Positions 1,935 through 32,245 of a stretch of DNA of 32,305 bases are shown here, piece by piece. The stretch comes from an uncultured Erysipelotrichaceae bacterium (lineage in GTDB: Bacteria; Bacillota_I; Bacilli_A; RF39; UBA660). Numbering within the stretch: position 1 is the first letter of the stretch; each line of letters opens with the position of its first letter. The stretch lies in assembly GCA_902797995.1 (NCBI GenBank), contig CADBUX010000014.1, forward strand, positions 1 through 32,305, written 5' to 3'. The notes under the pieces were generated by a model. That model was not told the DNA's origin. It was given only the letters and a program-made list of their open reading frames with translations, and did not search any database. Both the position numbers and the translations under genes were made by a program.

Positions 1935-2804
1935 TTATCTTGAAATACCATTTTTTTTATCATTATCAGCTCTTTTCAAATTATCTGTTTTATTAAATAT
2001 ACAACCAAATCTATCATCAGTATTAGCAGTAGATTTAAGAACAGATAATTCTAAATTGCCATTTTCATCATATAAATCGCTAATATAATTTTTTTCAAAT
2101 TTTCTGTCAGACATCATCCAATCATTACTAGCCATAGAATAACCTAAATCAGATAAATTCTTAATAAATTTAGAAAAATCAACATATCCTGAAATACGCC
2201 TATCTAAAAAAGCATTGACAGGTTCAGTAAAAAACATTGTATCAGATGAAGTAAGATTGGCTGAAACCTTAACAATAGAATCTTCTATCTTTTTTGATAT
2301 ATCATTATCAATATGTTTGCCATCTTTATCTACTACCCTAACAAAATTAAAATTAATAGCTAAATCAATATTACCTGGATAAAATTCACTCATTCCATCT
2401 CTTAATTGTGCTATTTTTGTAGCAATACCATGGGGAGTAATTTTATTATCTTCAGAAACTGATATACTATTTCTAGAAACCTCATCTAAAATATTATTAA
2501 TATTACTTTCTTTAGGAAGCTCCTCTTCATTTGTAATTATAAACAAGTCATCAGTAGACTTAATTTCACTTTGCTTTTTCATTTCTTCTTTAAAAAACTC
2601 GGAACTTTTGATTTCACATTTTTCATCAAAATAATCTCTAAAGAAATTACCATACTCTTTATTAATTTCTTTAACTTGTTTCATATATTTAGATGCATCA
2701 TCTTGATTAATTATCTGTTTAATTACCAATCCATCTGAAACATTAATCCCAACAAAATGAATTAATCCTTCATTATCTAAATTAATTATATACTTTGATT
2801 TCAT
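1935..2804 (-). CDS. Unknown protein in the dnaN-recF interval
   Basis: I do not recognise this 289-residue protein. It has no signal peptide or membrane segment and looks cytoplasmic, with mixed strand and helix. Residues 1-35 (MKSKYIINLDNEGLIHFVG...) look strand-rich; residues 60-105 are acidic and probably flexible; residues 120-250 look like a folded domain, with PHGIATKIAQLRDGM and IDLAINFNFVRVVD. The start ATG is well placed behind GTAGGAGGT. It has its own promoter and terminator, so it is a single-gene unit, co-directional with the replication fork. It occupies the place where yaaA is normally found but has no S4-like sequence. Its function cannot be inferred. Confidence 0.8.
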   Translation of the reverse strand: MKSKYIINLDNEGLIHFVGINVSDGLVIKQIINQDDASKYMKQVKEINKEYGNFFRDYFDEKCEIKSSEFFKEEMKKQSEIKSTDDLFIITNEEELPKESNINNILDEVSRNSISVSEDNKITPHGIATKIAQLRDGMSEFYPGNIDLAINFNFVRVVDKDGKHIDNDISKKIEDSIVKVSANLTSSDTMFFTEPVNAFLDRRISGYVDFSKFIKNLSDLGYSMASNDWMMSDRKFEKNYISDLYDENGNLELSVLKSTANTDDRFGCIFNKTDNLKRADNDKKNGISR

Positions 2805-2922: not shown

Positions 2923-2983
2923 CATATTACACAATAGTATAACAAACTAAACTAAAAATTATATAACCAAGGAGTTGAAAAAG

Positions 2984-3751
2984 ATGGATAATAACTATTA
3001 TATAAACAAGTTTAAAATGAAAATTAATAAAATGAGTTATGAATTTAACAGATTATATCAAAAATTACAAATTATAAGCTCAGAACAAATATATATTAGT
3101 AATATTTTTGAAACGTACAGAAATAAAGTATTTGAAATAGAAAATATGTTATTAAAACAATCTATAAACTTATGGGATGATGATTTTATACTAAGAGACG
3201 CAATAATGGTTACAATGGACTTAAAAACAGAAGAAGCAAAAAACATTCTATCAGATGCTGCTGATAGACTATCAAAAATGCCCACAATAGCCATTGCCGA
3301 TAGAAATTTAAATAAATTACCCATGATGGTAATAAAACCAAAAATAAACAAATTTAACAAAATTAATGAATCAATTAGTAATTACAATATAATGAATAAT
3401 TTGAAAGAGACACTATTAACTTATTACAACGACATTCCTATTGAAATATATAGACCTGGTGATTTTAACAAATCTTACATAAAAATGAAAAAATGTATTG
3501 AACAAATAGGATTAGACATCTCTTTAAAAGAACAAGAACAAGATATATTGAACTTAATATCAAACAAAGAAAAACAATGCTTAGAATATCATAATAATAA
3601 TAATAATAAACAAGATGCCCCTACCACAATAGACTTTTTAGAAATCAAAGATAATATACAAGACACAAAATTAACATTAGAATCAATAAAAAAATACAAT
3701 AATTATAACGAAATATCAGAAAATGTAGAAAATTCACATAAATCAAGATAA
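2984..3751 (+). CDS. Unknown helical protein A, paralogue of the 10849-11562 product
   Basis: I chose the ATG at 2984, 9 bases after GGAG, over an upstream in-frame TTG at 2975 that lies too close to that site; this gives 255 residues. No known family is recognised. It is predicted mostly helical, without signal or membrane segments. It is clearly homologous to the 237-residue protein at 10849-11562. Shared in order are ETYR (43-46), LWDDDF (63-68; FWSDEF in the other), a TYYNDIPI block (146-153; WYYSNIP), SYIK (164-167) and CLEY (199-202). After CLEY comes H-N5-K, encoded by an AAT triplet repeat, then a divergent polar tail. It is transcribed from right to left-arm fork direction reversed, i.e. 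head-on to the fork leaving oriC, unlike its neighbours. Confidence 0.8.
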   Translation: MDNNYYINKFKMKINKMSYEFNRLYQKLQIISSEQIYISNIFETYRNKVFEIENMLLKQSINLWDDDFILRDAIMVTMDLKTEEAKNILSDAADRLSKMPTIAIADRNLNKLPMMVIKPKINKFNKINESISNYNIMNNLKETLLTYYNDIPIEIYRPGDFNKSYIKMKKCIEQIGLDISLKEQEQDILNLISNKEKQCLEYHNNNNNKQDAPTTIDFLEIKDNIQDTKLTLESIKKYNNYNEISENVENSHKSR

Positions 3752-3830: not shown

Positions 3831-4286
3831 TTAATCGTTTTTTTTACCATTTTTTCTATTACTAGAAATAGCATCTAACATATTACATCTAAATATTTGG
3901 TTTTTAACAGAAAAATATGGACAATCAATAATAACAGAGTCACCATTATTAAAAATAACCTTACTTTTCCTATTATGTTTCTCAATATTTTTAATGTTTT
4001 TATAAGAAATCCATCCAACATTATCAGATGCTAAAGCTTCTGTAGGAAAAAATATAAGTTTCTGAGTTTCTTCCACAATAACAGGAATCTTATAAACACT
4101 ACCTAAAATGTTCTTAGAACCAATGATTCTTCCATCAAAACTACTTCCAAAATAATTACAACTATGTTCCATTACTTCATAAGGTGTATCGTTAATAATG
4201 TATTCATCATTCTTTTCAATTACTCTAGATTTATTCTTATCAAATGGAAGAATAGCAAGTGTTTCCTCATTTATTTCATATTTCAA
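3831..4286 (-). CDS. comK: ComK-family competence transcription factor
   Basis: ComK is the master activator of DNA-uptake competence genes in Bacillus; it binds AT-rich K-boxes. This 151-residue product carries the family pattern throughout: KYEINEETLAILPF (2-15), HSCNYFGSSFDGR (41-53), IPVIVEETQKLIFFPT (67-82), GWIS (91-94), KVIFNNGDS (109-117) and NQIFRCNML near 129-137. I place the start at a TTG (4286) behind GGGGGGTGA; a GTG 12 bases further upstream lies inside that site, and a longer frame upstream is unlikely because it runs through the promoter. It is shorter than Bacillus ComK (about 190), lacking much of the C-terminal tail. Regulatory context: own promoter with a palindrome at the start site. 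Whether it drives competence depends on com genes elsewhere. Confidence 0.85.
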   Translation of the reverse strand: MKYEINEETLAILPFDKNKSRVIEKNDEYIINDTPYEVMEHSCNYFGSSFDGRIIGSKNILGSVYKIPVIVEETQKLIFFPTEALASDNVGWISYKNIKNIEKHNRKSKVIFNNGDSVIIDCPYFSVKNQIFRCNMLDAISSNRKNGKKND

Positions 4287-4336
4287 AAAAATCACCCCCC
4301 AAAAAAACAAATTTTGCAATTGCAAGAACCTTATAC
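4287..4336 (-). promoter_or_regulatory. comK promoter and possible operator
   Basis: Minus strand extended -10 TGgTATAAG (TATAAG at 4335-4330); the -35 is weak. The perfect 12-base palindrome TTGCAATTGCAA (4314-4325) covers the expected start site and looks like an operator for a dimeric protein. Just downstream, AAAATTTGTTTTT fits the loose ComK box pattern AAAA-N5-TTTT, which could mean autoregulation, but such matches are common at this AT content. The stretch 4337-4389 between this and the dnaN terminator shows nothing else I can name. Confidence 0.45.
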
Positions 4337-4389
4337 CACAAAATAATGTCGAAAAAGATAGAAATTTGTAGAAAAAGTTAAAAAATTGC

Positions 4390-4426
4390 AAAAAAAAAGC
4401 AATATTAACAGTAAAATGTTAATATT
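4390..4426 (-). terminator. Terminator after dnaN
   Basis: Perfect 9-bp stem AATATTAAC/GTTAATATT (4401-4409 with 4418-4426), 8-base loop, followed on the minus strand by GC and a run of nine T. It separates dnaN from comK. Confidence 0.8.
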
Positions 4427-4436
4427 ACTAGTTTTA

Positions 4437-5552
4437 CTAATAAGTTCTAATAGGTAAAATTAATGAAACAAGATCATCGCTATCATCATTTTTTAACAAA
4501 ATAGGTTTAATTTCTCCAACAAATGTAATTATTACATCCTTTGTCTTAATAGTTCTAAGTGCATCCATCATATATTTAGCACTAAAACTTATTTTAATTG
4601 AATCAGAACAATCAACATTCATCTTTTCCTCAACTTTACCTATTTCAAGTGACATAGAAGTAATCTTCATTAGTTTATCTTTGATTTCAAGTGTAACAAT
4701 ATTATTATCATTATCATCATTTAATATACTAGCACGATCAACCATACTATAAAAATCATTACAATTTAGTTTTAATTCAAATAATGATTCACTAGGTATT
4801 AGATTTTTAGTATTTGGATAGGTACCATTAATTAGTCTAGACTGAAAAATAATGTTGTTGAATTTAAATATAATCTTATTTGAAAATAAATGAAGTTCTA
4901 TTTCATCTTCTAAAGATGATAATAATTTCATAAGTTCACTTAAATTCTTACTAGGAATAATTATATCTATATCATTAGAAACACTAGTTGATAATTTGAA
5001 TTTACGAAGGGCAAGCCTATAAGAGTCAGTTGCACTACATTCTAAACTATCACCATTTATTTTTATATTAACACCAGTAAGTACTATTCTAGCTTCATCT
5101 AAAGAACATGCATAATTAGTTTGACTAATCATAGTTTTAAAATCAGATATTTTCATATTAACAAAATCTGTTGATAAGTCTAAATTAATATCAGGATATT
5201 CCCTTGCTTCAATACCATTAAGATTAAATTCACTATTTTCAGTAAATATCATAATTTTATGATCATCAATAATCTCAATATTAATAAATTCAGAATCAAG
5301 CTTTCTAATTATATCTAATATATATTTACCCTTAATAACAATACTACCAGTATCTTCAATAAGTAAATCTTCTCCTGAATTAATAGAAGTTTGAATTGTA
5401 ATATCATTATCAGAAGCAGTAATAACTAACCTATCCTTAAATAAATCAAATTTTATTCCTGAAAGTATTGGTATTATATTTTTAGTAGATATTGCTTTTG
5501 AAGCATTATTAAGAGCTTCTAATAAAACAGTTCTTTTAATTTTTAATTTCAT
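4437..5552 (-). CDS. dnaN: DNA polymerase III beta subunit (sliding clamp)
   Basis: Ring-shaped processivity clamp that tethers polymerase III and recruits many DNA-repair partners. The 371-residue product matches the family length and its three-domain repeat: residues 1-125 start MKLKIKRTVLLEALNNASKAIS and hold the clamp-typical SGIKFDL; residues 130-250 hold SLDEARIVLTGV and DSYRLALRKF; the C-terminus ends in VSLILPIRTY, the normal clamp ending (LPMR). It lies downstream of dnaA as in nearly all bacteria, 143 bases apart, with AAGGAAA before the ATG. The gap carries its own promoter-like sequence and DnaA-box-like repeats, so expression may respond to DnaA. A strong terminator follows, so dnaN is not co-transcribed with recF. 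Confidence 0.97.
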   Translation of the reverse strand: MKLKIKRTVLLEALNNASKAISTKNIIPILSGIKFDLFKDRLVITASDNDITIQTSINSGEDLLIEDTGSIVIKGKYILDIIRKLDSEFINIEIIDDHKIMIFTENSEFNLNGIEAREYPDINLDLSTDFVNMKISDFKTMISQTNYACSLDEARIVLTGVNIKINGDSLECSATDSYRLALRKFKLSTSVSNDIDIIIPSKNLSELMKLLSSLEDEIELHLFSNKIIFKFNNIIFQSRLINGTYPNTKNLIPSESLFELKLNCNDFYSMVDRASILNDDNDNNIVTLEIKDKLMKITSMSLEIGKVEEKMNVDCSDSIKISFSAKYMMDALRTIKTKDVIITFVGEIKPILLKNDDSDDLVSLILPIRTY

Positions 5553-5695
5553 ATTATTTCCTTCTTTCTTTTTTTTATTATTTATATAGTATTTATATTA
5601 TTACTGTTAATATTGTTAATAACTCTTAATAGCTAGTAATATCAACAGATTAATCAAAATTTAATTGTTAACTTATATTAACAAGTTTAACAAAT
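5553..5695. promoter_or_regulatory. dnaA-dnaN intergenic region: second DnaA-box cluster and dnaN promoter
   Basis: This 143-base AT-rich gap has a perfect TGTTAATAA (5614-5622, TTATTAACA on the minus strand), an adjacent TGTTAATAT (5605-5613) and ATATTAACA (5675-5683). A candidate dnaN promoter on the minus strand is -35 TTAACA (5610-5605) and -10 TATAAA (5586-5581) with 18 bases between; its -35 lies inside one of the repeats. Together with the main cluster at 7172-7336 this gives the bipartite layout, with dnaA between two box clusters, known from Bacillus. The promoter is a weak call. Confidence 0.5.
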
Positions 5696-7087
5696 CTATG
5701 TTAATTGCTTTTCAATATTGTGAATTGCATCGCTAAGATCTTTATTTATTTTCATTTCACGTTCAATTTTATTACATGCATGTATTACCGTAGCATGATT
5801 TTTTCCAGAAAATTCTATTCCAATGCGTTCAAATGACTCATCAGTTAGTTTCCTACATAAATACATAGCAACTTGTCTAGGAATAGCAAGATTCGGTGTC
5901 CTTTTTTTAGATTTCATATCCTCAAAAGATATCTTATAGAAATTAGCTACACTCTTTTGTATTCTACGGATATTATTTTGATCTGTAACAGCGTCTTTCT
6001 TAGTAAAATCTTTTAAAGCTTCCATTGCAAATTCTAAAGTAATATCAGTTACGCACATAATTGCAGAATATGCAACAAGTCTTGTAATAGACCCTTCCAG
6101 TTGTCTAACATCATTACCTATATTGGAAGCAATAAAGGATATAACCTCATCATTAATAGTGATTGCTTCCCTTTTTAACTTTTTCTTAATAATGGCAACC
6201 TTTAAATCATAATCAGGAGGACTAATATCAACTTGAAGCCCCCAAGCAAATCTAGTTCTAAGACGATCCTCAAGTACTTTTAAGTCTTCAGGAGATCTAT
6301 CAGATGATACTATTATTTGCTTACTATCGTTATATAAATTGTTAAAAGTGTGGAAAAATTCCTGTTGAGTTTTCTCTGCCCCTCCAAGAAACTGAATATC
6401 ATCAATTAACAAAACATCAACATTACGATATTTATTCTTAAAGAATTCTACATAATCTAAATTATTAGTATTGTTATTTTTACGAGCAAGTCCTGTAAAA
6501 TCATTCATAAAATCATCACTAGTAACATATAAAACCCTTTTTTCAAACTTGTTTTCAATATAATTACCAATTGCGTGCATCAAATGTGTTTTACCAAGAC
6601 CGCTATTACCATATATAAATAAAGGATTATATAAAGTACCAGGATTTTCCGCAACTGCAAGTGCAGCAGCTTGTGCAAATTTATTTGATTCCCCTACTAC
6701 AAAACTTTCAAAAGTATAGTTTTTATTCAAGTTAGAAGAATGATTTTTAATATAATTAACATTAGAGTTTTCTTTAATAGAACTAGAATCACTAATCTTT
6801 TCAATTTTTTCTTTATCTTTTTCTAAAATATCCGCTACATTATCTTTTAGAATATACATTATGTTATCAACAGGAGTTGTTAATAAGTTATTAAAACTAT
6901 TTAAAATAATATCTCTATAATTTCTATCAATATGACTTTTATACCACATAATTGGAATAACAAGTCTAACATTACTACCATCAATACCAATAAAATCAAT
7001 ATTTTTAAACCACGTTTCATAAGATAAAGGGTCGACAATATTACTGATATTATCTAAGACTTTTGACCATAATAATTTATCATCCAT
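5696..7087 (-). CDS. dnaA: Chromosomal replication initiator DnaA
   Basis: AAA+ initiator that binds oriC and melts it. The 463-residue product shows all four domains: I (1-80, LSYETWF), a variable Asn/Lys/Ser-rich domain II (about 85-125), III (126-345) with Walker A GNSGLGKTH (160-168), Walker B LLIDDIQFL (226-234) and the arginine-rich DRLRTRFAWG (274-283), and IV (about 365-463). Domain IV keeps PRQVAMYLCRKLT (403-415), but the DNA-reading motif normally GGRDHTTV is SGKNHATV (427-434); I checked this codon by codon. At the equivalent positions in E. coli DnaA, Asp and Thr contact DnaA-box bases. The start ATG follows a GGGGAGATGG ribosome binding site. It is divergent from rpmH across oriC. 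Confidence 0.97.
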   Translation of the reverse strand: MDDKLLWSKVLDNISNIVDPLSYETWFKNIDFIGIDGSNVRLVIPIMWYKSHIDRNYRDIILNSFNNLLTTPVDNIMYILKDNVADILEKDKEKIEKISDSSSIKENSNVNYIKNHSSNLNKNYTFESFVVGESNKFAQAAALAVAENPGTLYNPLFIYGNSGLGKTHLMHAIGNYIENKFEKRVLYVTSDDFMNDFTGLARKNNNTNNLDYVEFFKNKYRNVDVLLIDDIQFLGGAEKTQQEFFHTFNNLYNDSKQIIVSSDRSPEDLKVLEDRLRTRFAWGLQVDISPPDYDLKVAIIKKKLKREAITINDEVISFIASNIGNDVRQLEGSITRLVAYSAIMCVTDITLEFAMEALKDFTKKDAVTDQNNIRRIQKSVANFYKISFEDMKSKKRTPNLAIPRQVAMYLCRKLTDESFERIGIEFSGKNHATVIHACNKIEREMKINKDLSDAIHNIEKQLT

Positions 7088-7171
7088 AACACCATCTCCC
7101 CACTAAAAATAAAGTATTTACAACCTAATTTCATTCTAATACAATTTAAAAAAACCTACAAGACTAAATAG

Positions 7172-7204
7172 AAATTAACAGACTTATTAACAGACTTATT
7201 AACA
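7172..7204 (+). repeat. Three 12-base-period DnaA-box-like iterons
   Basis: AAATTAACA (7172), TTATTAACA (7184) and TTATTAACA (7196) follow each other on the same strand, separated by the identical trinucleotide GAC, so the period is exactly 12 bases. Two copies are identical over GACTTATTAACA. This head-to-tail array is the most regular part of oriC. Confidence 0.7.
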
Positions 7205-7225
7205 AGTCTTTTCCTTTAATTACAT

Positions 7226-7254
7226 ACTATAAAATAGTTTTTAACAAATTTCAA
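7226..7254 (-). promoter_or_regulatory. dnaA promoter candidate
   Basis: Minus strand -35 TTGAAA (7254-7249), spacer of 17, -10 TATAGT (7231-7226). The spacer contains a DnaA-box-like element (7238-7246) and the three iterons lie just downstream of the start, an arrangement that would allow DnaA autorepression. The leader would be about 135 nt. Confidence 0.55.
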
Positions 7255-7347
7255 GTAAAAAGTTAATAACAGTATTAACAATTTAACAACACATGTTAAA
7301 ACAAAAAATGTTAATTAACGTTAAAACGGTTAATAAGTAAAAAATCA

Positions 7348-7377
7348 TTGACAACTCCCCTATTTTTCATATACAAT
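7348..7377 (+). promoter_or_regulatory. rpmH operon promoter
   Basis: Consensus -35 TTGACA (7348-7353), 18-base spacer, -10 TACAAT (7372-7377), about 30 bases before the rpmH start. It is the only perfect TTGACA among the promoters noted here, as expected for a ribosomal protein gene. Confidence 0.7.
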
Positions 7378-7407
7378 AAAACCGATTAAGTTTGGAGGTG
7401 CATGAAC

Positions 7408-10848: not shown

Positions 10849-11562
10849 ATGACAGACAAAGAAAAAAGTAATAAAAAACTCAATAACCACAAAGCAGAAA
10901 CAAATGAACTAATACCAATCATTGAAGGTATAATAAAAAATATAAGTAAAATAGAGCCAAATTATTCTCAAATAGACAATATAGTAGAAACATATAGAGA
11001 CAAGATATATGATATTTATACAGAATTAGAAAAGAAATTGATAGATTTTTGGAGTGATGAGTTCTTAATTGGAGACCTAATAAGATATCATTTAGAAACA
11101 ATAATGTATCATAGCGTAGAAGATTTATTATCCCTAGCAACAGAAGTTTTATCAAAAAAGAAAAGAATTTTCTTAGGAAAAAATGTAAATAATAATGTTT
11201 TAAAAGAATTAAAAGAGTCTAACAAATATATAAAAGATTATAGTATTAATAATAATATATATGACACATTAATATGGTACTATAGTAATATACCAGTCAT
11301 AAGTTTTAAACCTAAAGAAATAATTTATTCATATATTAAAATTAGAAATAAATTAAAACTAATGAATATGGGCAATCTATTAACTGAAGAAAAAGAAAAA
11401 AATATAATAGCAATAATAGAAAAAAAAGAAGTAGAATGTCTAGAATATAGAAAAAAATACAATCAAATATTAAATATATTAAAAGAAATAGCAAACAAGG
11501 ATGAAGAAGCAAATATACAAGATAGTATTATAAAACAAAGAAAAAAAGAGTATAAAAACTAA
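10849..11562 (+). CDS. Unknown helical protein B, paralogue of the 2984-3751 product
   Basis: The 237-residue protein has no family I recognise. It lacks membrane segments and is strongly charged and helical. It shares ordered motifs with the protein encoded at 2984-3751: NIVETYR (44-50), FWSDEF (67-72), LSK (101-103), WYYSNIPV (143-150), SYIK (161-164), and EKKE-ECLEY (191-200), with nearly equal spacing, so the two are paralogues rather than chance resemblance. The C-terminal part (200-237) is basic and coiled-coil-like. Start ATG follows GGGAG at good distance, 12 bases after mnmE, so the two are probably co-transcribed. It separates mnmE from mnmG, which are contiguous in most Firmicutes, and is followed by a terminator. 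Confidence 0.82.
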   Translation: MTDKEKSNKKLNNHKAETNELIPIIEGIIKNISKIEPNYSQIDNIVETYRDKIYDIYTELEKKLIDFWSDEFLIGDLIRYHLETIMYHSVEDLLSLATEVLSKKKRIFLGKNVNNNVLKELKESNKYIKDYSINNNIYDTLIWYYSNIPVISFKPKEIIYSYIKIRNKLKLMNMGNLLTEEKEKNIIAIIEKKEVECLEYRKKYNQILNILKEIANKDEEANIQDSIIKQRKKEYKN

Positions 11563-14253: not shown

Positions 14254-15453
14254 ATGAACTTAGAAAAAGAAATTTTTGATATATCTTTAAAGGATATTAT
14301 TCCAAATAGATTTCAACCAAGAGAAATATTTGATGAAGAAGCATTAAATGAATTATCACAATCAATTAAAGAGCACGGAGTAATTCAACCAATAATAGTA
14401 AGAAAAGTTGGAGACAAATATGAAATAATTGCAGGAGAACGTCGTTTTAGAGCATCACAAATGGCAGGTAAAGAAACAATTCCAGCTTTAGTAAAAGATA
14501 TCGATGATAAAGAAGTAGCAAAAATAGCGTTGCTTGAAAATCTTCAAAGAAGTAATTTAACACCAATCGAAGAAGCAAAAACATATCAAACAATCTTAAA
14601 AATAGATAATATTACTCAAGATGAACTTGCAGTAAACTTAGGAAAATCACAAGCAACAATTGCTAATAAACTAAGATTATTAACACTAGATGAAGAAGTT
14701 CAAACAGCACTACTTAATTCACAAATATCAGAACGACATGCCAGAAGTTTAATAGGATTAGCTAAAGAAAAACAAAGAGAATTATTACACAGAATAATAA
14801 ATGAAAAACTAACAGTAAGACAATTAGATGAAGAAGTAATGAAATTAAATGGTAGAATGACAAATAATGAAGTAGCAGTACCAATTCAAAAACAAGGAGA
14901 ATTACAAATGAATACACAAGTAAAAGAAGAAGTACAACCTACAATTTCAAATGGCTTAAATAATACAGTTCAACCTATACAAACCCCATTATCAAATATA
15001 GTGAATAATACTTCACAATCTGATCAATCTACAATACAAAATATACATAATAATAGCGAATCTCATTATGAAGAACATTTAGATGAAATAAAACCTAACA
15101 CTTCATTAAATATAAACTCTGAAACACCACCAGTAATGGAAAACATATTTGATAAATTAAGAGTAAAATCTGAAGAAACAGAAGAACCACGTGAACCAAA
15201 AATAGATTTATCAAGTATTGCGTCACAACAAGCATTATCAAATATAACACAGACTCACCAAAACGATAATATTCAAGCAAATGAACAAGAAAGTTATAGT
15301 AACATATATGATTTAAGATTTGCTATTAATAATTTTAGACAAGCAATTCAAAATACAGAAAAGTTTGGATTTAAAGTATCAACAAGTGAAGAAGACCAAG
15401 GAGATAAATACAAAATAGTGATAGAAATAGATAAAAATCAAGGAAACTCTTAA
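14254..15453 (+). CDS. noc: Noc-type ParB paralogue (nucleoid occlusion), with long linker
   Basis: In Bacillus, Noc binds NBS sites, uses CTP to spread, and blocks septum formation over the nucleoid. The 399 residues show the N-terminal CTP-binding fold with QPR (21-23), GERRFRA (61-67) and ENLQR (95-99), then a helix-turn-helix. At the four positions known to separate Noc from ParB specificity I find Gln133, Lys139, Thr144 and Arg161, three matching Noc. The C-terminal dimer domain (352-393) resembles Bacillus Noc. Two oddities: the N-terminal amphipathic membrane helix of Bacillus Noc is absent, and residues about 200-350 form an Asn/Gln/Ser-rich linker with one conserved-looking patch (ENIFDKLRVKSEE), making it over 100 residues longer than Bacillus Noc. 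Position after rsmG and before parA is standard. Confidence 0.85.
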   Translation: MNLEKEIFDISLKDIIPNRFQPREIFDEEALNELSQSIKEHGVIQPIIVRKVGDKYEIIAGERRFRASQMAGKETIPALVKDIDDKEVAKIALLENLQRSNLTPIEEAKTYQTILKIDNITQDELAVNLGKSQATIANKLRLLTLDEEVQTALLNSQISERHARSLIGLAKEKQRELLHRIINEKLTVRQLDEEVMKLNGRMTNNEVAVPIQKQGELQMNTQVKEEVQPTISNGLNNTVQPIQTPLSNIVNNTSQSDQSTIQNIHNNSESHYEEHLDEIKPNTSLNINSETPPVMENIFDKLRVKSEETEEPREPKIDLSSIASQQALSNITQTHQNDNIQANEQESYSNIYDLRFAINNFRQAIQNTEKFGFKVSTSEEDQGDKYKIVIEIDKNQGNS

Positions 15454-28797: not shown

Positions 28798-28823
28798 ACA
28801 ATTTAATGAAAAGGAGTTATAAA

Positions 28824-29708
28824 ATGACACATGAAATATATGATAAAGTAAAGAAAAATATTGAGCAGTTCATTACACAAGAAATAGATAGAAGAGATGA
28901 TCCTTATCTTTCAGAAAATCAGGAAAGAATAATAGAAAAATTTATAGAAGAAATATGCAATGAGTCAAATCAAAAAATGAAAAGCTGTACTGAAAAAGAA
29001 ACAGAGGCTTATAGAAAACTAATTGGAATAGACAATAACGGAGATTTGCAAACTTATAAACAAGTGTGTAAGCAATTAAATAAACATAACGTAAGACCAT
29101 TAATATTTAACGCTAATAGAAAACTAATGTGGGCTATATATAGAGAAATTCTTTTTGAAGATAAAGTAAAACTCATTCAACTAGAATATAATTATCAAGA
29201 AAACAAAGGAATGATTATACCTGAAGATATAGAAGTTGAAAACCTAAAAAGTATTATCTACTTTGAATATGAAAAACTACGAGAAATAGGCATTAACAAT
29301 GTAAGTGATATAACAAATTATACAATACCTGAAATAACCAGTATAATAAACAACATTAATATACATTCTAGAAGAAAACACAATAAAGAAAAAGTAGCAA
29401 ACGAACTAATAAAAACAATTCATATACTAGGATTTTTATTTAATGGTGAAGAGGGGTATCAAGACCAAATAGAATATTTTGATAGATTAAGAAAAATAAT
29501 AAATGCTGAAATATCAGATAATAGTGATGAAGATAGAAACATCAAGAAAGAACTATATCATAGAAAAGAACTAGTACTATATTATGATAGACTAATAAAA
29601 GAAAAAGAACTATTATTAAGATCACTTGATGAAATAGATAAAGACATATCAAAAACAAAAGAAGAAATAATCCAAAAAGAAAACAAAATAAAAACAAGAA
29701 AAAGATAA
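28824..29708 (+). CDS. Unknown helical protein with C-terminal coiled coil
   Basis: I do not recognise this 294-residue protein. I start at ATG 28824, seven bases after AAAAGGAGT; an in-frame ATG at 28806 lies upstream of that site. It is soluble, strongly charged and predicted almost wholly helical. Residues 1-60 are acidic and may self-associate; residues 85-110 include RPLIFNANRKLMWAIYRE, the least polar part; residues about 245-294 form a Glu/Lys/Ile heptad-like segment, a probable coiled coil, ending in a basic KTRKR tail. It does not share the motifs of the two paralogous proteins at 2984 and 10849. It is a single-gene unit with its own promoter and strong terminator. Confidence 0.78.
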   Translation: MTHEIYDKVKKNIEQFITQEIDRRDDPYLSENQERIIEKFIEEICNESNQKMKSCTEKETEAYRKLIGIDNNGDLQTYKQVCKQLNKHNVRPLIFNANRKLMWAIYREILFEDKVKLIQLEYNYQENKGMIIPEDIEVENLKSIIYFEYEKLREIGINNVSDITNYTIPEITSIINNINIHSRRKHNKEKVANELIKTIHILGFLFNGEEGYQDQIEYFDRLRKIINAEISDNSDEDRNIKKELYHRKELVLYYDRLIKEKELLLRSLDEIDKDISKTKEEIIQKENKIKTRKR

Positions 29709-31060: not shown

Positions 31061-31723
31061 ATGATAACAAAAAAATGGGATGAAATTTTAAAAGATGAAT
31101 ATGAACAAGAATATTTTGTCAATATGCTAAAGCATTTACAAGTAGAATATAGAGATAAAATAATATTTCCACCCAAAAAAGATGTTTTTAAGGCCTTGAG
31201 ACTAACAGATTATGATAATATAAAAATAGTAATTATAGGACAAGACCCTTATCATGGTACTGGAGAAGCTGAAGGATTATCATTCTCAGTAAGAGATGGA
31301 ATAAGAAAACCACCATCACTAAAGAATATATTTAAAGAATTACATGATGATTTAGGATACACTGAACCGGAAAGTGGATCACTTGTTAAATGGGCACAAG
31401 AAGGAGTGCTTTTGTTAAATGCCATATTAACAGTAGAAAAAGATAAACCTTTATCACACAAAGGATTAGATTGGGAACGTTTTACAGATGCAGTAATTAA
31501 AAAGATAAATGAAAAAGAAACACCTGTCGTATTTGTTTTGTGGGGAGCCTTTGCTAGAAGTAAGAAAGTATTAATAACTAATCCAAATCATTACATTATA
31601 GAATCTCCTCATCCATCACCATTTTCTGCAAGATATGGATTCTTTGGAAGTAAACCATTTTCTAAAGCCAATAATTTTTTAATATCAAAAAAAATTAGTC
31701 CAGTTAATTTCAAGCTAGACTAA
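31061..31723 (+). CDS. ung: Uracil-DNA glycosylase, family 1
   Basis: Removes uracil from DNA arising by dUTP misincorporation or cytosine deamination, the first step of base excision repair. The 220-residue length is typical. Motif A GQDPYHG with catalytic Asp62 (60-66) and the Leu-loop motif HPSPFSARYGFFGSKPFSKAN (starting near 187) are intact; LLNAILTVE and FVLWGAFA are also typical. The ATG follows AGAGGTG. The stop codon overlaps that of the opposite-strand gene by three bases. Confidence 0.97.
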   Translation: MITKKWDEILKDEYEQEYFVNMLKHLQVEYRDKIIFPPKKDVFKALRLTDYDNIKIVIIGQDPYHGTGEAEGLSFSVRDGIRKPPSLKNIFKELHDDLGYTEPESGSLVKWAQEGVLLLNAILTVEKDKPLSHKGLDWERFTDAVIKKINEKETPVVFVLWGAFARSKKVLITNPNHYIIESPHPSPFSARYGFFGSKPFSKANNFLISKKISPVNFKLD

Positions 31724-31728
31724 TTTTT
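31690..31728. terminator. Bidirectional terminator shared by ung and the LemA-like gene
   Basis: Perfect 11-bp stem AAAAATTAGTC/GACTAATTTTT (31690-31700 with 31718-31728), 17-base loop, with A and T runs so that each strand ends in T. It lies across the ends of both converging genes. Confidence 0.8.
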
Positions 31729-32223
31729 AAATATTTCATATTGTTCCAATTTTCTAATTTTAAATGATTTATAACTATCAAATTTAAGGAATTGAAAAAA
31801 TTTATGAAAGTATTTTTTTAAGAAAATTTCGTTATAGTTTAATACATTAGCATTATAATAATCCTTAAGACCATCAAGATTTTCTTCTAATTCATTAAGT
31901 ATTTTTAATTTATCTTTAAGCTTTTTATTCTTACCTTCCTTAACAAATTTATTAATTTCAAAACTGACATTAAATAAAACATCTTCTCTTTCGTATAAAG
32001 AAGCTCCTTCATCATAATTAAAACTATTTTTTATACTTTCATCTTTAATATCACTCAAAAACTCATTAACAAGCTTTAGTTTTTCGTCCAGAGCTTCATT
32101 AATACTATTAGTGCACATTTCAAGAGAGTTTCTAATATCTTTTAACTTTGAGTATTTAAAAAATAAAATTATTGCACAAACAACTATAATTAAAATAAGT
32201 AAGCCAATAACATAAATAATCAC
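31720..32223 (-). CDS. LemA-like membrane-anchored protein
   Basis: About 167 residues from a GTG at 32223, five bases after AGGTGA; a GTG at 32232 lies inside that site. The N-terminus is a single membrane helix (about 2-22) with a short outside end, then a helical domain. The architecture and the C-terminal block DGLKDYYNANVLNYN followed by a short Phe-rich stretch (KFFQFLKF) and a Lys/Glu end recall the LemA family, whose function is poorly known. The match is partial: the usual LemA N-terminal NxLv-x-DxRW-like region is only weakly visible. It is on the minus strand, against the direction of fork movement on this arm. Confidence 0.55.
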   Translation of the reverse strand: MIIYVIGLLILIIVVCAIILFFKYSKLKDIRNSLEMCTNSINEALDEKLKLVNEFLSDIKDESIKNSFNYDEGASLYEREDVLFNVSFEINKFVKEGKNKKLKDKLKILNELEENLDGLKDYYNANVLNYNEIFLKKYFHKFFQFLKFDSYKSFKIRKLEQYEIFKN

Positions 32224-32245
32224 AAAAATCACCTATCTTCTTAAA

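Follow-up and report, generated by a model that had tools for sequence, protein, structure and literature searches.

Recognition-helix residues 433 and 435 of DnaA co-vary with origin box positions 6 and 5 among relatives of an uncultured AT-rich Bacilli species

Gene order and features of the origin region

The window, the whole 32,305-nucleotide stretch of DNA analysed here, carries recF, a comK-like gene, dnaN and dnaA in this order on the minus strand and rpmH, rnpA, yidC, jag and mnmE on the plus strand, as assigned by profile searches (Table 1). This order, recF..dnaN-dnaA followed by rpmH-rnpA-yidC-jag-mnmE, is the standard origin arrangement of Bacilli, and GC skew within the window turns from negative to positive near 7 kb. 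Box clusters on both sides of dnaA, the rpmH-dnaA-dnaN order and the skew switch together match the description of a Bacilli-type bipartite oriC. The genome comprises 1.07 Mb in 38 contigs; the named records closest to it are MAGs of uncultured gut Bacilli/Tenericutes, and Candidatus Caccenecus is one of the more distant relatives.

Adjoining dnaN, between dnaN and recF, lies a gene for a ComK-family protein (PF06338, 125 bits; 3831-4391, minus strand), a competence regulator unexpected in a reduced genome of 1 Mb. Open reading frames at 2975-3751 (+), 1935-2804 (-), 10849-11562 (+), 28806-29708 (+) and 31720-32232 (-) have no Pfam match, and the first two, located between recF and dnaN, also have no NCBIfam match.

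Table 1. Features of the dnaA region, in window coordinates.
Feature	Position	Strand	Basis
dnaN	4437..5552	-	TIGR00663
dnaA-dnaN intergenic region, downstream origin half	5553..5695		box cluster
DnaA-trio-like run TAA TAA TAT AAA TAC TAT	5586..5603	-	read from sequence
ATATTAACA box abutting the 5614..5622 box	5605..5613	-	T5A6 invariant in six species
TTATTAACA box	5614..5622	-	TATTAACA retained in five congeners and the sister genus
dnaA, 463-aa initiator	5696..7087	-	TIGR00362, 509.6 bits (cut-off 343.9)
SGKNHATV, N-terminus of recognition helix (E. coli 430-437)	5786..5809	-	translation, alignment
F-E, equivalents of E. coli 422-423 (L422, P423 there)	5828..5833	-	alignment to 1j1v_A
dnaA-rpmH intergenic box cluster, putative upstream half of bipartite origin	7088..7400		boxes, GC-skew switch, gene order
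TTATTAACA box	7184..7192	+	exact; TTAACA core aligned in all five congeners
TTATTAACA box, direct repeat 12 bp on	7196..7204	+	exact; congener alignment
TTTTTAACA box	7238..7246	+	congener alignment
TTATTAACT near-box	7261..7269	-	sequence
GTATTAACA near-box	7272..7280	+	sequence, congener alignment
TAATTAACA near-box	7309..7317	-	sequence
TTATTAACC near-box	7328..7336	-	sequence

The boxes and their conservation in congeners

Bases at box position 6 are written C6 or A6, and those at position 5 T5, C5 or G5. An initial annotation of this DNA had reported perfect TTATTAACA copies and no TTATCCACA in the two intergenic regions flanking dnaA. This was confirmed, with one exact TTATTAACA between dnaN and dnaA and two between dnaA and rpmH, and neither TTATCCACA nor TTATTCACA occurs anywhere in the window. 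Likewise, TTATNCACA is absent from the dnaA intergenics of the window (NN = TA only), and the origin has no canonical TTWTNCACA cluster with C6. Further exact TTATTAACA copies in the window lie within dnaA (6878) and at 14677. The frequency of the box, which the annotation had proposed to compare with expectation, proved far above it: three copies were seen in 476 intergenic bases against 0.05 expected from the rate in the same genome (118 copies in 1.07 Mb; Poisson p about 2e-5), and the pooled count over five species of the genus is 15 against 0.69 under a second-order Markov model.

The SGKNHATV-type helix and a TTATTAACA-rich, TTATCCACA-free origin are common to all four congeners, so neither feature is an assembly accident. 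In the five aligned origins the boxes occupy fixed places with a constant A6 and with T5 occasionally replaced by C (at 7196 and 7238). Specifically, the box at 7196..7204 is TTGTTAACA or TTATCAACA in congeners and that at 7238..7246 is TTTTCAACA in two of them, position 6 always being A, while the box at 7184..7192 has a TTTTTAACA-type first half in one congener. In the substitution profile of TTATTAACA across the genus, positions 6 and 7 are the most rigid and C6 is never seen.

Between dnaA and dnaN, the two abutting boxes and the trio-like run are kept in congeners, and the abutting boxes in the sister genus too. The run starts one base past the paired boxes and is a candidate unwinding site. 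Read by hand with the (.A.) x3 search pattern of PMC8287927, which asks for three or more NAN trinucleotides no further than 16 bp from a box, 5586-5622 (minus strand) is a candidate basal unwinding system. As in the B. subtilis system described there, paired boxes are followed by NAN trinucleotides between dnaA and dnaN; unlike it, the window has boxes of the TTATTAACA type and its unwinding role is putative.

That the TTATTAACA clusters are not DnaA sites, the origin lying elsewhere or some other protein binding them, is highly improbable. The origin is placed from sequence in a genome of 38 contigs, which leaves some room for such a reading; against it, clusters stand on both flanks of dnaA where the GC skew flips and the gene order is canonical, the sites are kept in congeners, and relatives hold classical TTATCCACA boxes at the same places.

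Recognition helix of the window DnaA

The profile match of the window DnaA to TIGR00362 is full length (residues 7-462), and its domain IV matches 1j1v_A (E=1.4e-19) and 8btg_A (E=5.3e-27). Translation and a gap-free alignment to 1j1v_A (E. coli DnaA domain IV) upheld the annotated replacement of GGRDHTTV by SGKNHATV at residues 427-434, S-G-K-N-H-A-T-V facing G430-G-R432-D433-H434-T435-T-V; the codons had been placed at 5796-5819, ten bases away from their actual position (Table 1). The window protein shares with the E. coli domain (1J1V) R399, H434 and T436 and the 9-mer frame TTWTnnACA, and differs in D433N, T435A and P423E and in A6 for C6 of TTWTNCACA; relatives mostly have D, S and P at the three replaced positions. 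In the literature, D433 is called highly conserved across all classes (PMC8235120), P423 has been reported to make contacts (PMC7561715) and the recognition helix lies over TnCACA in solved structures (PMC5742627). The informative changes in SGKNHATV are N433 and A435 (E. coli numbering).

Helix classes and box bases across the family

Relatives were gathered by protein search and with a degenerate codon pattern for [KR]-N-H-[AST]-T. This pattern, which misses helix variants with deletions, matched 36 of 386 sampled family genomes in 17 of 150 genera; the genus of the window was itself missed because its Ser codon is TCN. Outside the family, a single one of the roughly 373 other genomes in the phylum sample matched, and there is therefore no outside replicate. 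The Mollicutes could not serve as an independent test of Asn433, since all those read keep Asp433.

For 185 unique dnaA loci of the family, boxes were counted as TTATNNACA in the intergenic regions on either side of dnaA. Residues 433 and 435 are shown by these computations to co-vary with box positions 6 and 5. Among genomes with Asn433 and Ala or Ser at 435, none of 118 TTATNNACA sites has C6, against 321 of 876 with Asp433; Asp433 thus permits C or A at position 6, whereas Asn433 with Ala/Ser435 goes with A6 only. By class, N433/A435 has 0/38 C6 and 87% T5, and N433/S435 has 0/80 C6 and 60% C5. The Asp433 counterparts retain C6 at 20/61 sites (33%) with 59% T5 in D433/A435, and at 301/815 (37%) with 47% C5 and 32% T5 in D433/S435, although 15 of 101 D433/S435 genomes lack C6; D433/T435 has 58% C6. 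Asn433 alone does not remove C6, which N433/T435 genomes keep at 78 of 168 sites (46%), with 41% G5. Ala435 goes with T5 and, combined with Asn433, gives TTATTAACA; Asn433 with Thr435 goes with G5 (TTATGCACA). Box position 7 is A in every helix class.

An unrestricted 9-mer search, from which conserved gene ends and ribosome-binding stretches were set aside, returned as enriched boxes TTATTAACA in N,A, TTATCAACA in N,S, TTATGCACA in N,T, TTATCAACA plus TTATCCACA in D,S and TTTTCCACA in D,T genomes. Relatives with SGKNHATV or GGKNHATV, in which use of TTATCCACA would have spoken against the proposed link, were found to have none. TTATTAACA also occurs in Asp433 relatives, mixed with CC/CA/TC boxes, and the sequences point to the loss of C6 plus fixation of T5 as the specific event, rather than to the presence of TTATTAACA itself.

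The initial annotation had tentatively tied the changes of the Arg, the Asp and the first Thr to the box. D433N and T435A do carry the association, while R432K has no clear effect: Lys432 is common with CC boxes, 22 of the 24 D,T genomes with such boxes carrying it, and in the larger models it raises C6 without reaching significance. G430S can be set aside as well, as the same boxes occur in sister genera whose motif is GGKNHATV.

In N433/T435 genomes (e.g. L200-L202) the main box, TTATGCACA, occurs 44 times against 1.3 expected, and G5 is rarely used by Asp433 relatives.

Association after correction for kinship and base composition

A tree was built from DnaA domains I-III, domain IV being left out. 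It needs at least 10 changes between D and N at 433, with 6 for N with A/S and 10 for Ala435; Asn433 arose repeatedly in the family. With tree, sampling error, intergenic GC, residue 432 and residue 431 as PGLS terms, N433 with A/S435 lowers C6 (z=-4.6, p=4.5e-6; with the window clade removed z=-4.0, p=7.5e-5), A435 raises T5 (z=4.4, p = 1e-5) and N433 with T435 raises G5 (z=6.4), a rule that rests on few origins. When TTWTNNACA was used and residue 423 included, the values were z=-6.2 (C6), 4.5 (T5) and 11.2 (G5). The comparison of motif and 9-mers in relatives suggested by the initial annotation thus yields an association over 185 loci that survives correction for phylogeny and base composition.

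We regard as quite unlikely the explanation that AT-rich drift took the boxes to TTATTAACA, with a tolerant DnaA whose motif changed neutrally and whose specificity never shifted. Intergenic GC does have a strong effect of its own on C6 (z=6.2), TTATTAACA is found in Asp433 relatives too, and it is reported as a putative DnaA box in Mycoplasma hominis, M. mobile and M. arthritidis (PMC2751442), and the sampled Mollicutes keep Asp433. However, base composition as the sole cause is contradicted by GC-matched bins: below 20% GC, C6 is seen at 0/65 sites with Asn433 and A/S against 47/197 with Asp433, and at 20-22% GC at 1/68 against 102/270. The residue effect also persists with GC and phylogeny in the model, and AT drift predicts neither the C5 kept in N,S (TTATCAACA) nor the G5C6 gained in N,T.

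An unlikely explanation, too, is that specificity shifted through fellow travellers (for instance 422/423, 438/439 or backbone positions), N433 and A435 serving as markers for them. Of 9 N,A genomes, 8 have Glu at residue 423, which changes together with 435 in the window clade; P423 is a reported contact, and work on Epsilonproteobacteria implicates 435, 438 and 439. Against this, when non-Pro423 is fitted together with 433/435, it leaves C6 unaffected (z=0.6) and acts weakly on T5 (z=2.2), and residues 399, 407 and 443 are nearly constant across helix classes. Of the candidate positions, 423 thus entered the model, while 438 and 439 were covered by tabulation. Residue 423 (Glu in the window DnaA) may add to T5.

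In a comparison of independent pairs for Asn433(A/S) and C6, 4 pairs were available, of which 4/4 or 3/4 nearly always ran as predicted and none ever ran opposite; with 4 pairs p cannot fall under 0.125 and significance is out of reach. The rules were derived from most of the same data that tested them. Predictions were also written down before 30 more loci were read. Held-out N433/S435 genomes (n=2) had 0/16 C6, as predicted. Held-out D433/A435 genomes (n=3) had T5 at 8/16 sites and C6 at 0/16, contrary to the prediction that C6 would mostly be kept. Asp433 therefore permits C6 and does not guarantee it, and the idea that Asp433 always means C6 boxes was dropped; Asn433 with a small residue at 435 appears sufficient for the absence of C6, not necessary.

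Interpretation and comparison with known systems

Taken as a whole, the locus is probably where chromosome replication starts in an uncultured, AT-rich species of Bacilli in which the specificity of DnaA has shifted and the boxes have followed. We incline, with less assurance, towards the wider proposition that the family has recoded its recognition helix repeatedly, with changes at residue 433, residue 435 or both setting positions 6 and 5 and moving whole origins between TTATCCACA, TTATCAACA, TTATTAACA and TTATGCACA. If true, this would constitute a natural, readable recognition code in an initiator long thought near-invariant at Asp433.

The residue changes would cause the base preferences by changing how the recognition helix contacts the major groove. 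A preference of Asn for adenine would agree with the usual hydrogen-bond chemistry of Asn. Published contacts, however, put D433 at box position 7, which is invariant here while position 6 moves, so that Asn would either reach the neighbouring base or the helix start would shift; a slight shift in the placement of the helix is no less likely than a direct Asn-adenine contact. The origin would otherwise operate as in B. subtilis, DnaA loading on the boxes that flank dnaA and unwinding the trio-like run beside the paired boxes downstream of dnaA.

Species-specific boxes, divergence of helix and box in Epsilonproteobacteria, and TTATTAACA as a putative Mycoplasma box are already known. In Epsilonproteobacteria, altered helix residues (435, 438, 439) accompany a changed box with a TTCAC core, and binding has been footprinted (PMC5043019). 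The window resembles this system in pairing a helix change with a box change, in T5 and in a bipartite origin around dnaA, and the association of Ala435 with T5 recalls an Epsilonproteobacterial position 5 fixed as T with residue 435 usually Ser. It differs in that Epsilonproteobacteria keep D433 and C6, whereas the window has Asn433 and, at positions 4-8, a TTAAC core in place of TTCAC, binding being inferred only. The Mycoplasma species, AT-rich relatives, carry exactly this 9-mer upstream of dnaA, with one or two TTATTAACA per origin recognised purely by sequence match; given that the sampled Mollicutes keep Lys-Asp-His, their TTATTAACA is probably uncoupled from Asn433. Cyanobacteria (TTTTCCACA) and Thermotoga (AAACCTACCACC) likewise have lineage-specific boxes (PMC10225481), yet with the CCAC core kept or a longer site, and that list yields no residue-by-residue code.

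What seems new here is the recurrent loss of the 'highly conserved' Asp433 together with a position-by-position protein-DNA code; our literature search, outside which most subscription papers lay, returned nothing direct on a natural D433N DnaA, on co-evolution of helix and box or on a residue-to-base code. The evolution of DnaA specificity is poorly documented, and a shift is hard to achieve, the initiator and all origin sites having to change together. This family supplies at least 10 Asp/Asn changes at 433 with matching site changes, and a two-residue, two-base code is concrete and testable by residue swaps in laboratory DnaA proteins. Origin finders that use TTATCCACA as the default box may miss or under-score such origins.

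Further helix and box variants in the family

The dnaA of L266 (G322) encodes GGKTHTTV, with Thr at 433 as a third state, and its origin holds one TTATNNACA (AC). L268, L271, L272, L031 and L242 lack one residue where the DnaA helix begins (x-N/H-R-[DN]-H); these variants show few or no C6 boxes even when Asp433 is kept, and the loop preceding the helix may therefore play a part. Assembly or binning effects are the likely source of a dnaA interrupted by an internal TAG and of another dnaA fragment located at a contig end, noted for L258 (G350:C111) and L283 (G276:C17). Finally, in D433/T435 genomes (24 loci) the main 9-mer is TTTTCCACA, the cyanobacterial box, with 91 copies against 3.5 expected, so that position 3 may also be influenced by residue 435 or one close to it.
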